Assembly: GCF_001438845.1 (NCBI RefSeq)
Contig: NZ_JQCL01000051.1
Coordinates: 1 to 43,960 of the forward strand
Origin: Lactiplantibacillus xiangfangensis
GTDB taxonomy: Bacteria > Bacillota > Bacilli > Lactobacillales > Lactobacillaceae
Direction of reading: 5' to 3'
Length of the DNA stretch: 43,960 bases
The position numbers were made by a program, and so were the translations under genes. Shown here piece by piece: positions 10,601 to 41,493 of this stretch. The stretch's first letter is position 1. Every line of letters begins with the position of its first letter. A model generated the notes under the pieces. The model was given only the letters and a program-made list of their open reading frames with translations, had not been told where the DNA came from and did no database searches.

Positions 10601-12907
10601 TTACTTGGTAGGCGTGTTCAGTTGCGACTGAATGGCATCACGAGCGGCGACCATGTTGGCCAGTGCGGCGCGAGTTTCGGGCTCTTGTCGTGTCTTTAAG
10701 CCGCAGTCCGGGTTGATCCAAAATTGGTGAACGTCGATGACGCGTAAGGCCCGTTGGATATTGGTTTTGATCTCATCAACACTTGGGACGCGGGGACTGT
10801 GAATATCGTAGACCCCTAAACCGATTTCTTTGTCGTAGCCGGTCGTTTCAAAAGCGCTGATGATTTCGCCGTGTGACCGGGAAGTCTCAATCGAAATAAC
10901 ATCGGCGTCTAAGGCCTTGATGGTTCCAATAATGTCAGCAAAGTTCGAGTAGCACATATGGGTATGAATCTGGGTGTCATTTTGGACGCCGGTCGTTGTG
11001 ATTTTAAAAGAGTAGACGGCTTCGTCTAAGTAGGACTTCCAGTGGCGGGCCTTCAAGGGGAGTCCTTCCCGGAGTGCGGGTTCGTCTACTTGGATAATCT
11101 TAATGCCCGCCTTTTCCAAATTACCCACTTCTTGGCGCAAAGCGAGTGCAATTTGGTTTTGAACCTGGGCCTTAGGGATGTCGTCACGGACGAAGCTCCA
11201 GTTGATGATGGTCAGTGGGGCGGTTAACATCCCTTTGACCGGCTTAGTGGTTAAACTTTGGGCGTAAACTGAAGCGGCAACCGTGATTGGCTGCGTATAG
11301 GCGACGTCACCAAAGATGATTGGTGGCCGAACCCCGCGGGAGCCGTATGATTGAACCCAGCCGTTTTGGGTGGCGTAAAACCCGGTCAGCTTTTGTCCAA
11401 AGTATTCGACCATGTCAGTGCGTTCAAACTCACCGTGCACGAGCACGTCTAAGCCGAGCTGTTCTTGAATTTCAATCCAGCGTTTCGTTTCAGCGTGTAA
11501 AAAGGCTTGGTAGTCTTCATCGGACAGGTTGCCCTTACGCCAAGCTGCGCGTTTAGACCGGACTTCGCTGCTTTGCGGAAAACTCCCAATCGTCGTTGTC
11601 GGTAATAACGGTAAATTTAGCCGGTCGTGTTGTAACTGAATCCGAGTGGCAAACGGAGCCTGGCGTTCAAACGTCTGGTCAGTAAGGTGCGCTTCCGCTT
11701 CACGAACGGCCTGGTTATTGCGGTGACTGGATTGATTGAGGGCATCCAGGTTGGCACGGTTGCGGTCAAAAGCAGCTTGGACGCTGGCAGTCCCCTTATT
11801 GGCCGCGGTGGTCAGGGTACTGAGTTCAGCTAACTTTTGGTCCGCAAAAGCTAAGCCACCGAGTAAAACGGGATCGGCTTTCGTCTCATTAGCGGTCGTG
11901 ATTGGCACGTGTAGCAAGGAGTTGGCTGGTTGTAACCACAGGTGGTCACTAGGGACAACTGCTAATAGTTGTTGAATGAGGGCTAGTTTGGCTGATAAAT
12001 CGGACACCCAGACGTTGTGACCGTCAATGATGCCGGCTGCGAGAACTTTGTCAGTTGGAAAACCACGTTGTAAAAGATCGGTTAAGTTTTCACCGTGGTC
12101 GTGGACGAGGTCTAACCCGATGGCTTGAACCGGTAGCGTGACGATCTGATCATATAAATCTAAGCTGTCAAAATAAGTTTGTAATTCGATGTTCAACGTT
12201 GGGGCCGCTGCGTGTAGTTGTGTCAAAGCTTCCTTATAAGGTCTGAGTTCAGCTGACTGCGTAGTTTTGACGAGGGTTGGTTCGTCTAGTTGAATCCATT
12301 GGACGCCAGCTGCGGCCAACTCTTGAAAGACTTGCACGTAGAGTGGCAGCAGTTGGGGAAGCAGTTCGGTGACTGCCGCGTCGTCTAAGTATTGGCCATT
12401 ACGTTTACCGAGTTTTAAGAATGAGACGGGCCCTAAAATAACGGGCTTACCGGTAATACCGAGCTCATCTTTGGCTTCCTGGTAGTAGCGCAGCCACCGG
12501 TTATCTAATAATTGGAAGTGGACGTCGTCAAATTCGGGCACGATGTAGTGGTAGTTGATATTGAACCATTTCGTCATTTCAGAAGCCACCGCATCCTTTG
12601 TGCCGCGGGCGAGGGCGTAATAATCGTGTAAATCAAGTTGCTGGTCAAAGTGACCATAGCGGGCGGGGATGACCCCAAAAGCCGCAATCGTATCGAGCAC
12701 GTGGTCATAGTCGGAGTTATCGGCGACTGGAATGAGGTCAATGCCTAACGCTTGTTGTTTTTTGAGGTTAGCTAACCGGAGTTGTTTGGCCTGCGCGTGG
12801 AACGCGGTGGTATCCAGTTGTCCTTTCCAAAAGTGTTCCAATAAGTGTTTCCATTCGCGATGTTCGCCCAAGCGGGGGTACCCTAAATTACTACTAATAA
12901 CAGTCAT
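10601..12907 (-). CDS. metE: Cobalamin-independent methionine synthase MetE
   Basis: A 768-residue protein (family about 755-770) that transfers a methyl group from 5-methyltetrahydropteroyl-polyglutamate to homocysteine. The N-terminal half starts [16 protein letters not shown], and the catalytic half has [15 protein letters not shown] and [10 protein letters not shown]. The zinc ligands are visible in HTHMCYSNF (His and Cys, near residue 650), a downstream Glu in SIETSRSH, and NPDCGLKTR (Cys, near 730). The ATG at 12907 follows AAAGGAG; the frame opens three codons earlier. It is the first gene of the operon with the MTHFR fusion, which supplies its methyl donor, and is read through a Met-type T-box leader. 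Confidence 0.97.
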
Positions 12908-12934
12908 AATGACCACTCCTTTAATTTAGTGAGA

Positions 12935-13200
12935 ATAAAAAACGGCAACTTCGTCTCAAAAGGACGAAGTTGCCGTTCGCGGTACCACCTTAGTTTATCA
13001 ATACCTCACGATATTGATCTTATCCCGTACATTTCATACGGTAGCTGGGTAACAGGAGCTGGCTGTCATCACCTAGCAAATGCTCGGCGGTGCCGTTTAG
13101 AGGCCATTTTCATCAAGTGCTCGCCGACCTGGTTTCCACTATTCCAGGCTCACTGAACGGGATTGCAAGACTACTTTCCTCATCAAGACGTTCTATAATT
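12935..13200 (-). promoter_or_regulatory. T-box leader for methionine (metE operon)
   Basis: On the minus strand, the leader ends with the T-box core GGTGGTACCGCG (plus 12978-12989). It is followed by a 12-bp terminator hairpin GGCAACTTCGTC/GACGAAGTTGCC (plus 12944-12974) and a T6 tail. Stem I near its start carries GGAAAGTAG, an S-turn-like AGTA. Its other side has GATGAAAATGGCC, where GAA-A-ATG places an AUG methionine codon in the specifier position (plus 13105-13107). Uncharged tRNA-Met would stabilise the antiterminator and turn on metE. The specifier fits the downstream genes. Confidence 0.93.
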
Positions 13201-18568: not shown

Positions 18569-18613
18569 AGAATCCGTTCAGAAATGTGGTCTATTTCTGA
18601 ACGGATTCTTTTT
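18569..18613. terminator. argS terminator
   Basis: AATCCGTTCAGAAAT / ATTTCTGAACGGATT is a 15-bp perfect stem with a 7-base loop and a T6 tail. AAAAG on the left gives a short T-run on the minus strand too, so it may also end transcripts coming from the TauE gene through the structured element at 18636-18850. Confidence 0.88.
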
Positions 18614-18635
18614 TAATTACTAAAGTTTGAAAGTT

Positions 18636-18850
18636 AAATTTAAGGATTAAGTACTGCTATATCAGTATCTAAGCCATGAAAATTAGCTATTTGTAAACTA
18701 TTCCGGTTGCCACTGATAACATGCGGTCTTGCCCCGATCCCGGAACAATTGCAAAAAACACAATTGTCCCGGACCTTCCGTGGTCTAAGGCCGGAAATTC
18801 ACCGGTCAAAGGTCACCTTCACGACCGATGTCATCAGTGGCAACCTCCGA
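18636..18850. repeat. Structured intergenic repeat element, copy A
   Basis: Copy A begins with the shared box AAATTTAAGGATTA (18636-18649). It then holds a long imperfect stem whose outer arms are 13 bp perfect: GGTTGCCACTGAT at 18705-18717 and ATCAGTGGCAACC at 18833-18845, continuing inward with ACAT and GGTC pairs. Inside is a second hairpin, CGGAACAATTG against CAATTGTCCCGG (18741-18772), and CCGG/CCGG at about 18790-18805. Shared words with the other copies include TGATAACATGCG and CGGACCTTCCGTGGT. It lies between argS and the 3' end of the minus-strand TauE gene. No coding frame fits it. Confidence 0.7.
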
Positions 18851-19018
18851 GCATCCGACTAGCATAAGCAACTTTCAGCTATGTTGAGGTTGCTATCAAA
18901 CTTGACTAATTTAGTAATGATAAGTAGTGTCGTGGCAACGATTGAACTAGTTTTAGCACTTTCAATCTTTAGTTAATTATAGTTATGGGTTGAAAGGTCT
19001 GAGATTTAAACCGGCGTG

Positions 19019-27913: not shown

Positions 27914-27955
27914 AAAGCACCGCAAAATCATGTCGATTTTGCGGTGCTTTTTGCG
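27914..27955. terminator. Strong terminator
   Basis: AAAGCACCGCAAAATC (27914-27929) and GATTTTGCGGTGCTTT (27935-27950) form a 16-bp perfect stem with a 5-base loop and a T5 tail on the + strand. Confidence 0.9.
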
Positions 27956-27977
27956 TGGGTACTGAAGTTTGAAACAT

Positions 27978-28187
27978 AAATTTAAGGATTAGTTATTCCG
28001 GTTGCCACTGATGACATGCGGTCGTGGGACCGGGTTAAGCCTGAGGAGCGGTCTTAATCCTCGCCCGAAACACTTGCAAAAAACGCAATTGTCCCGGACT
28101 GTCCGTGGTGTAGATGTGGAAAATCACCACCTCAACGCCACCTTCACGACCGATAGCACGCAAGGCTACCCGACGGAGCGGCTAATT
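27978..28187. repeat. Structured intergenic repeat element, copy B
   Basis: It starts with the same AAATTTAAGGATTA box (27978-27991) and ATTCCGGTTGCCACTGATGA-type arm as copy A. It has GCAAAAAACGCAATTGTCCC and CGGACTGTCCGTGGTGTAGA (28095-28114), then CACCTTCACGACCGAT. The 3' arm of the long stem has diverged, while a GTGGTG/CACCAC pair replaces one of copy A's inner stems. It ends 16 bases before the stop codon of the minus-strand yfhO gene. Confidence 0.7.
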
Positions 28188-36490: not shown

Positions 36491-36841
36491 TTAAAACGGA
36501 AAATCGAAGTTGTAGTAAACAATCTGTGCGGCCCGGTAAAAATCTTCATCACGCATGGTCTCAATGTAATCAATTTGACGATTGGCAGTGGGTGAGGCAT
36601 CAAATGAGTAAATTTGTGCAGCCACAACCTGACCATGAGTTTGGTAATTGTCACCCAAGGTTAGATAACCTGGCAGATCTCTAATTGTGGATGTAATTGG
36701 TGCGACAATAACAAAGCCAGTATTCTTGTTGTAAAGGTCACTACTGAGTATAAGGGCAGGGCGGTGTTTTTTAATTTCTCGGCCACGCTGCGGATCAAAA
36801 TTTATCCAGATGAGGTCTTTTTGCTTAGGAGTATATGCCAT
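36491..36841 (-). CDS. mazF: MazF/PemK family toxin (mRNA endoribonuclease)
   Basis: A 116-residue protein with the MazF beta-barrel pattern: KQKDLIWINFDPQRGREIKKHRPALILSSDLYN (the RPALIL strand and the preceding loop with its arginine), VIVAPITSTIRDLPGY, and GQVVAAQIYSFD. MazF toxins cut mRNA at short sequences. One base separates its ATG from the antitoxin stop codon, the usual antitoxin-first order. It is placed beside the glycosylation genes without any functional link to them. Confidence 0.93.
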   Translation of the reverse strand: MAYTPKQKDLIWINFDPQRGREIKKHRPALILSSDLYNKNTGFVIVAPITSTIRDLPGYLTLGDNYQTHGQVVAAQIYSFDASPTANRQIDYIETMRDEDFYRAAQIVYYNFDFPF

Positions 36842-37113: not shown

Positions 37114-37187
37114 TACTTTATAACCTATGACCTAATCTAAATAAAACATAATATTGACAAATTCATTACATCTGTTTTAGTTGGCCT

Positions 37188-37308
37188 TGATAACATGCGA
37201 TTTCGGACTTTCCGTGGTGTAAAGACCAGCAAAAGTACTTCCCAAACACCACCATCATGGCTGGGACTGTCCCTCATAGCACACCGGTTCTGTTCAACGA
37301 AGCGGTGA
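37188..37308. repeat. Structured intergenic repeat element, copy D (5' truncated)
   Basis: It shares TGATAACATGCG (37188-37199) and CGGACTTTCCGTGGTGTAAA (37204-37223) with copies A and B, has a TGGTGT/ACACCA stem, and ends CCGGTTCTGTTCAACGAAGC, similar to the end of copy C. The AAATTTAAGGATTA box is missing. It ends 15 bases before the stop codon of the minus-strand hxlR-type gene. Confidence 0.6.
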
Positions 37309-41046: not shown

Positions 41047-41066
41047 ATGCAGTTAGGGTAAAACTT

Positions 41067-41430
41067 AAATTTAAGGATTAGTTACTGTTGTATCAATGAC
41101 TGGATTAACAAAATCAAGCTATTCCGGTCGCCACTGATGGAAATAACAATAGTAAGATTATTTCACCTGCCACGGAAGATTTATCATGGTCGACCTCCAG
41201 CTAAGTTGATCTTTCGATGGAAATTGATTTAGCTCGCTTTTAACCAATCCTAGCGTAGCCGGTAGAATCAGTGGGCAGTGTCGGTCATGTCGCCTTGCAT
41301 ATCCTGCCTGGCGACATGGCGGGGCGTCTTGGAAGACTTGGGCTTTAGGCTTACAAGTGAGGCGGAAGCCCGTACCTTGGCTGTAGCCGACCCCACAGCC
41401 CACTGATTCTGTCCGGCGGAGCGATGAAGC
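41067..41430. repeat. Structured intergenic repeat element, copy C (largest)
   Basis: It starts with AAATTTAAGGATTA (41067-41080) and GTTACTGTTGTATCA as in copy A, then CTATTCCGGTCGCCACTGAT. Several stems are visible. The outer one is GAATCAGTGGGC (41265-41276) with GCCCACTGATTC (41398-41409), 12 bp perfect. Inner ones are CATGTCGCC/GGCGACATG (41286-41294, 41310-41318), GTCTT/AAGAC (41326-41337) and GGGCTT/AAGCCC (41340-41345, 41366-41371). It ends about 64 bases before the MocR stop codon. Confidence 0.7.
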
Positions 41431-41493
41431 ATCCTATTTTTTATCTTTGATATAACAGCGATTGTGCCTAATTTAATGCTTTTAGCCTTGAGT

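Follow-up and report, generated by a model that had tools for sequence, protein, structure and literature searches.

Structured intergenic repeats of Lactiplantibacillus xiangfangensis are very probably copies of a MITE-like element with a probable IS4-type helper

Four intergenic stretches of the DNA analysed here (the window; 43,960 nucleotides of contig NZ_JQCL01000051.1 of Lactiplantibacillus xiangfangensis) share short sequence blocks and stems, and they raise the question of whether a structured RNA family or a mobile repeat lies behind minus-strand genes. A reading of the sequence alone had offered three roles: a 3′ UTR element, a 3′-derived small RNA, or a repeat that inserts at gene ends. 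The last of these was borne out by terminal repeats, target duplications, empty sites and IS4-family elements with the same ends. Based on the comparisons below, the four stretches are very probably copies of a single MITE-like transposable element, which is non-autonomous and has a probable IS4-type helper. The family has defined ends, target duplications, empty sites, many copies, internal deletions and no long ORF, and congeners carry IS4 elements with the same ends.

Copy A (18620–18972, plus strand) is the only one of the four with both ends and a duplication. It comprises both terminal repeats, the left arm, a first module (M1) with an internal deletion and a second module (M2) that is mostly lost. 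The end-pattern scan placed the left terminal inverted repeat at 18620–18633 (plus strand, one mismatch to CTAAAGGTTGAAAG) and the right one at 18959–18972 (minus strand, one mismatch). The target duplication TTAATTA was read directly at 18613–18619 and 18973–18979 (no strand assigned), and M1 was found at 18702–18850 (plus strand) by the covariance model R2 with 107 bits. Upstream, an intrinsic terminator-like hairpin of argS with its T-run was read at 18570–18614 (plus strand); by the terminator scan, the T-run ends 5 nt before copy A. Copy B (27962–28187, plus strand) includes the left end CTGAAGTTTGAAAC, the left arm, M1 (module at 27997–28175, plus strand; R2, 139 bits) and a stub of M2, and lacks the right terminal repeat. 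It also follows a terminator-like intrinsic hairpin of the upstream gene (27915–27952, plus strand, read from the sequence). Copy C (37181–37308, plus strand) is the weakest, with pieces of M1 fused to the tail of M2 and unrecognisable ends; its homology leans mainly on shared blocks seen by eye, because R2 gives only 13 bits there (37205–37257, E 0.15). Copy D (about 41053–41492, plus strand) has an eroded left end and arm, an M1 stub, a minus-strand module of a third type (M3; 41253–41420, R2, 82 bits) and a right end ...CCTTGAG adjoining the stop codon of the MocR-type gene, and no target duplication was seen in its flanks. Three of the four copies are thus truncated or eroded.

These assignments confirm the homologous blocks that the sequence-only reading had noticed in all four stretches, by R2 modules in A, B and D and mainly by eye in C. 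They shift the bounds it had drawn: A covers 18620–18972, B starts at 27962, D covers about 41053–41492, and C has no recognisable ends. The hairpin terminators it had taken as the end of the element precede the left end in A and B and belong to the plus-strand neighbour. Each copy does adjoin a minus-strand stop codon, as claimed; as a rule this is only local, and the genes flanking A and B converge, so that the statement is true there for either orientation. The supposed common orientation holds in part, since in D the left arm is on the plus strand and the recognisable module on the minus strand, and C and D have the minority orientation in comparison with tandem sites elsewhere. A gene for a PemK/MazF-like toxin of a type II toxin–antitoxin pair (Pfam; 36491–36841, minus strand) adjoins copy C. 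Rfam annotated one T-box and four tRNAs in the whole window; the T-box leader (12957–13195, minus strand) is upstream of the ORF at 10601–12916.

The family is abundant in its own genome (G000, 2.99 Mb, 103 contigs). Stretch A as a blastn query matched at least 71 pieces (40 of 100 candidates scored), and the element is therefore dispersed. The fetched G000 DNA contained at least 80 distinct M1-type sites, far above chance. Genome-wide copy numbers are lower bounds, as a limited number of candidates was scored. One plan was common to 17 aligned G000 copies: the end CTAAAGGTTGAAAG, a left arm, M1 (~180 nt), a linker, M2 (~170 nt), a right arm and the inverted end. The full unit measures about 470–570 bp and its terminal inverted repeats 14 bp. 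For the covariance model R1, 31 M1 copies were used (25 from G000 and six from five relatives); R2 is broader. Since R1 also picks up M2, on the other strand of the elements that hold M1 (198 + 65 bits in L048, 139 + 98 bits in L074), a unit consists of two modules of a single type in inverted orientation. Interiors of M2, of M3 type (by eye) or with deletions were seen in seven end pairs without M1. In single-stranded DNA folding, a full copy from the congener G020 formed two adjacent branched modules with paired ends (z −9.7). In eight full G020 copies, no stop-to-stop frame exceeded 84 aa, and no transposase ORF was found inside. The G+C content of the modules is mostly 0.5–0.6, so the A+T richness that is a usual, although not strict, trait of MITEs is missing. 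G020 (L418–L426) also has a second module subfamily of ~164 nt (80–100 bits), present in dozens of places and apparently outside IS4-type ends.

The ends behave as those of a transposon. The terminal repeat pattern gave 57 matches in G000 and one for the reversed control. Both ends were recognisable at 25 of 80 G000 sites, and one or both were missing at the other 55. At the 25 two-ended sites, the flanking 7-mers matched at 3.92 of 7 positions on average, versus 2.46 for cross-pairs (permutation p 5e-5), with a peak at 7. Six of these sites had perfect, mutually different duplications (TAACAAG, TTAATAA, ATTGAAA, TTACTTA, TTAATTA and TTGTTGT), and a perfect duplication was absent in the remaining 19. 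Among the seven end pairs without M1, as read from the flanks, three had a perfect 7-bp duplication, one a perfect 8-bp and one a 6/7 duplication, and two had none. In G020, both ends were found at 8 of 10 loci, with perfect 7–9-bp duplications at five (the 9-bp one read from the flanks), a 7/8 match at two and none at one. Accordingly, the duplication length is near-constant at 7–9 bp, and the target is mostly AT-rich.

The joined flanks of six G000 insertions were searched in the nearest relative, G004; its hit coordinates are identical to those in the genome of the uncultured MAG L095, and the two were therefore treated as one genome. For three of the six insertions, G004 has the flanks joined around a single target copy, as expected of an empty site; the other three loci were a shared insertion, a rearranged site and a site at a contig end. 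The flanks also gave partial matches in L. garii. The shared insertion (L377 / G004 C69) is a 137-bp deletion derivative that has both ends and the same CTCAGAC duplication as the 612-bp G000 copy. At two further sites common to both genomes, an element of ~400 bp is inverted in place between collinear flanks (L332 and L347 versus C100:106556-109683 and C53:79586-82766). ArgS of G000 is 100% identical to that of L095 and 95% to that of L. garii. When the argS site was compared in other named species, the flanks differed, and only L095 had the same site, which was occupied. The gene preceding copy A in the window is argS, and a strongly diverged module with the same kind of fold is also located behind argS in L. 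fabifermentans (L097 11742-11923), ~50 nt past the stop codon.

A candidate for the enzyme was found in related genomes. IS4-family elements of ~1.57 kb with the same ends are present in three congeners: G020, L. dongliensis (G008) and G019. In G020, the facing end pair CTAAAGGTTGAAAC/CTTTCAACCTTTAG spans 1567 bp, encodes a 457-aa transposase and is flanked by ATAGGAG twice. The transposase was assigned to the IS4 family by NCBIfam (NF049925, 460 bits, cut-off 250), with DDE domains in Pfam. Its L. dongliensis relative (56%) has an open frame, ends identical in 14 of 14 positions and no clear duplication; these perfect ends make the helper claim slightly stronger. The G019 relative (57%) has one internal stop, nearly the same ends (T/CTAAAGGTTGAAAG) and a 7–9-bp duplication. 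The four plasmid relatives examined have the end variant CTGAAACTTGAAAG, and a shorter relative in G020 (L437) has no such ends. At E 1e-10, transposase relatives were found in 7 of 35 genomes, several in pieces, and none in G000 or G004. None of the seven M1-less G000 end pairs that were read contained a transposase, and none of the G000 end pairs matched by eye spanned more than 700 bp. The congener elements with the same ends point to a MITE-like non-autonomous transposon, and an IS4-type transposase of this group likely moves it in trans; we infer this movement, because G000 and G004 have no transposase relative. The sequence-only reading had held that a match to a known IS remnant or to an Rfam family would refute it. 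The IS match was largely obtained, the IS being located in relatives. At gathering score, Rfam gave no match at the four window stretches or at four full loci, and only sub-threshold miRNA/CsrC matches inside the elements; a known RNA family was thus rejected.

In two species, the position behind genes holds across the genome. The 75 G000 sites with both neighbours included 35 convergent, 37 tandem and 3 divergent ones, versus 22, 112 and 43 among 177 element-free control gaps from the same fetched DNA; the convergent excess (35/75 vs 22/177) had a p of 1.4e-8. Neighbours came from our own simple gene finder, and sites without a neighbour were dropped (5 of 80 in G000, 3 of 61 in G004). None of the 80 G000 sites was inside a called gene. 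At tandem sites, M1 was in the sense of the upstream gene in 26 of 37 cases in G000 (p 0.02) and in 29 of 32 in G004, a count that is not fully independent, as many sites are shared. Of the left ends, 10 of 56 in G000 and 4 of 18 in G004 had the T-run of a terminator ending no more than 12 nt upstream, compared with 29 and 31 of 4000 random positions, which were mostly coding; the end patterns are fuzzy, with overlapping left and right patterns and possible false ends. Insertions often lie a few bases past an intrinsic terminator, and copies therefore accumulate behind genes and between converging genes. In S. silagei (L187 1501-1677) and S. pentosiphilus (L203 1501-1675), a module lies between the same converging pair of genes, thioredoxin-reductase-like and aldo/keto-reductase-like by eye, which makes this an old copy.

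The remaining question is what keeps the fold. The sequence-only reading had seen stems that vary while pairing is kept, which is correct and very strong, and had taken this as a hint of RNA structure, which is not supported. Across 44 sequences, which come from three or more genera, changes on both sides were seen in 55 of 58 pairs. Paired cells made up 92.8%, versus 67.4% in shuffles, and the covariation score was 0.637, versus 0.174 in shuffles and at most 0.094 in slid controls; fitting the alignments (A4, A5) to the structure of the model increases pairing, but not to the observed extent. Selection on a sense RNA is expected to leave more G-U than A-C cells in stems. The counts of G-U and A-C cells were 53 and 44 in 31 copies, 52 and 55 in the 44 sequences, 49 and 51 in G020, and 23 and 32 in Furfurilactobacillus, Secundilactobacillus and G035. 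For the acceptor and T stems of tRNAs at the same loci they were 39 and 2 (p 4e-8 vs 52 and 55), where a pairing filter that itself lowers A-C counts kept 38 of 61 distinct sequences; unfiltered acceptor stems gave 5 and 1 (n=41). At 20 matched G000/G004 sites, single changes were G-U in 32 and A-C in 40 cases, and double changes numbered 63 against 12.4 expected, 44 of them from one Watson–Crick pair to another. The 12 pairs with at least 88% identity gave 15 and 28 single changes and 23 double changes against 4.1 expected. These sites came from 63 G004 module matches, of which 29 had a counterpart in the fetched G000 DNA; nine were dropped (two from L095, three with own copies lacking M1, four with own modules below 120 bits), and some of the 20 pairs are as diverged as paralogs and perhaps converted or independent. 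That G-U is no commoner than A-C, unlike in tRNAs, speaks against an RNA of the sense strand and in favour of maintenance at the level of DNA. The fold thus seems to be kept at the DNA level and not by a working sense RNA. Pairing restored in this way, with no preference for wobbles, may reflect DNA-level selection, repair templated by the other arm, a need for RNA from both strands, or decay from well-paired master copies combined with gene conversion.

A functional structured RNA family, be it a 3′ UTR element or a small RNA, that has spread through the genome would account for the very strong covariation across genera and for the sense placement at tandem sites, and the supermotifs of L. 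plantarum are reported, second-hand in the accessible part of PMC5643018, to be transcribed and stable. All four G-U/A-C counts and the single changes at matched sites go against it when set beside the tRNA stems, as do the location of some copies beyond a terminator and the lack of an Rfam match at threshold. We therefore find such a family very improbable, and the 3′ UTR and 3′-derived small RNA roles appear to fall with it. Inverted pairs of palindromic modules in high intergenic copy number would also suit a REP/BIME-type element mobilised by a RAYT (Y1) transposase. This is barely credible: PF01797 had no match in the own genome while 5 of 14 control genomes were positive, direct 7–9-bp duplications and IS4-type partners indicate DDE chemistry, and the modules are far larger than REPs; the reading was largely refuted.

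A more serious possibility, which we rate somewhat short of an even chance, is a transposon whose fold is wholly unselected, palindrome mismatches being corrected from the other arm by template switching and copies being homogenised by gene conversion. The strand-symmetric mismatches and the excess of double changes, also in the 12 best pairs, agree with it, and the two in-place inversions show that the inverted structure is recombinogenic. Template switching is known for RNA genes, as described in the accessible part of PMC8794818. Multi-base switching predicts clustered adjacent double changes, whereas four were seen against 1.6 expected (none against 0.26 in the best pairs), and the clustering, taken as a sign of template switching, was not significant. 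Moreover, stems change less than loops (0.098 vs 0.141 per site), and the branched architecture is kept across several genera despite sequence divergence, beyond the needs of pairing repair.

The modules are spread widely. R1 matched in 13 of 60 genomes, the own genome included, namely 11 of 20 congeners and one genome of another genus (G035), and in 17 of the 29 genomes to which named loci gave access. These 17 included Furfurilactobacillus milii, Furfurilactobacillus rossiae, four Secundilactobacillus and Loigolactobacillus bifermentans. R2 was run on 19 genome handles (16 distinct by identical coordinates) and matched in 12 (9 distinct), adding L. garii, L. plajomi, L. plantarum EGD-AQ4 and Schleiferilactobacillus perolens. 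Combined, the models matched in 18 of the 20 congeners G001–G020, and neither matched in G001 or G002. IS4-type ends were located beside modules in G000, G004, G020, L. daoliensis, L. mudanjiangensis and L. pingfangensis, weakly in L. herbarum, and were not seen in the few loci examined of other species. A blastn search with one full element found no copies on plasmids or phages.

In the plantarum group, an element of ~770 nt from G005 has inverted modules and other ends, and as a DNA query, with 40 candidates scored, it gave at least 61–80 matching pieces in each of four plantarum-group genomes. R1 had found nothing in L. plantarum EGD-AQ4, which suggested two unrelated families, but one R2 match and this DNA search overturned that view. 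In the G005 copies (L387–L406, 602–882 nt), the outer arms pair mutually and their sequences differ between copies; the 20 copies (5 convergent, 5 divergent, 6 sense, 4 antisense) have no gene-end bias. The plantarum-group relatives (0.6–0.9 kb) lack IS4-type ends as well as this bias, and the module family is therefore wider than the transposon. According to the second-hand description in the accessible part of PMC5643018, the L. plantarum supermotif (LPSM; Wels et al. 2009) is a large intergenic cruciform element of 800–1000 nt, reported as specific to L. plantarum. Compared through that description, the 0.6–0.9-kb elements fit LPSM. The window family, at about 470–570 bp when full, falls short of the 800–1000 nt given; the G005 relatives measure 602–882 nt.

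Returning to the MITE-like transposon, we suggest the following course. An intact unit would consist of a 14-bp terminal inverted repeat, left arm, M1, linker, inverted M2, right arm and second terminal repeat, some units having M3. It would insert as a whole and duplicate 7–9 bp of a mostly AT-rich target, mobilised in trans by an IS4-type transposase. Target choice together with the loss of harmful insertions would lead to the accumulation at gene ends. Either selection or repair that copies the other arm would keep the fold, as a hairpin or cruciform in DNA. The element is expected to be mainly a genomic parasite with no gene of its own. A tentative and rather unlikely extension is that selection has long preserved the ~180-nt module as a device of DNA and not of RNA. 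Compensatory changes, symmetric between the strands, would maintain it as a multi-arm cruciform in at least five Lactobacillaceae genera. It would occur as inverted pairs both in the large plantarum-group supermotifs and, after capture between IS4 ends, in a mobile unit, and it would do a job at the DNA level. Candidate jobs would then be the binding of structure-specific proteins, handling by transposase or replication, and absorption of supercoils beyond terminators.

What looked like a new RNA family is thus recast as a mobile element for which a candidate helper can be named. It should be noted that covariation alone is no proof of RNA; the balance of G-U and A-C is a simple check, which here points to DNA. 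The puzzling L. plantarum supermotifs, as far as the accessible part of PMC5643018 describes them, are suggested to be members of a module family present in several genera, and their origin, movement and upkeep become testable in laboratory strains of food grade. In a literature search that largely covered papers available without subscription, none was recognised as describing the element.

Among known systems, the element is most readily compared with bacterial MITEs such as RUP, Correia and ERIC. As far as the accessible parts of PMC2229807 and PMC10969869 go, it shares with them terminal inverted repeats, target duplications, the lack of a long ORF, high copy number, a folded interior and an IS with matching ends as the probable source of mobility. 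It differs in exceeding the length of about 100–200 bp and in lacking the TA motif at the ends given in PMC2229807, and in carrying G+C-rich, inverted multi-stem modules conserved across genera. With the IS4 family (NF049925) it has in common the 14-bp ends (G020, G019, G008) and the 7–9-bp duplications (G020, G019), but it lacks a transposase and its interior is different. The pneumococcal BOX, RUP and SPRITE repeats, in the part of PMC3049150 available, are likewise structured, over-represented between converging genes and read as parasitic; BOX, however, consists of tandem boxB units and not of an inverted pair of one module, and its host and sequence are other. YPAL of Yersinia, as the accessible text of PMC2229807 has it, is also mobile, with targets beside dyad symmetry and known empty sites, but its duplications vary from 3 to 26 bp and it has no terminal inverted repeats. 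LPSM, in the second-hand account cited above, is likewise a large, intergenic, cruciform-like repeat, and the G005 elements, which may correspond to it, carry the same module pair. The window family differs from it in its shorter length, its IS4-type ends and its bias towards gene ends.
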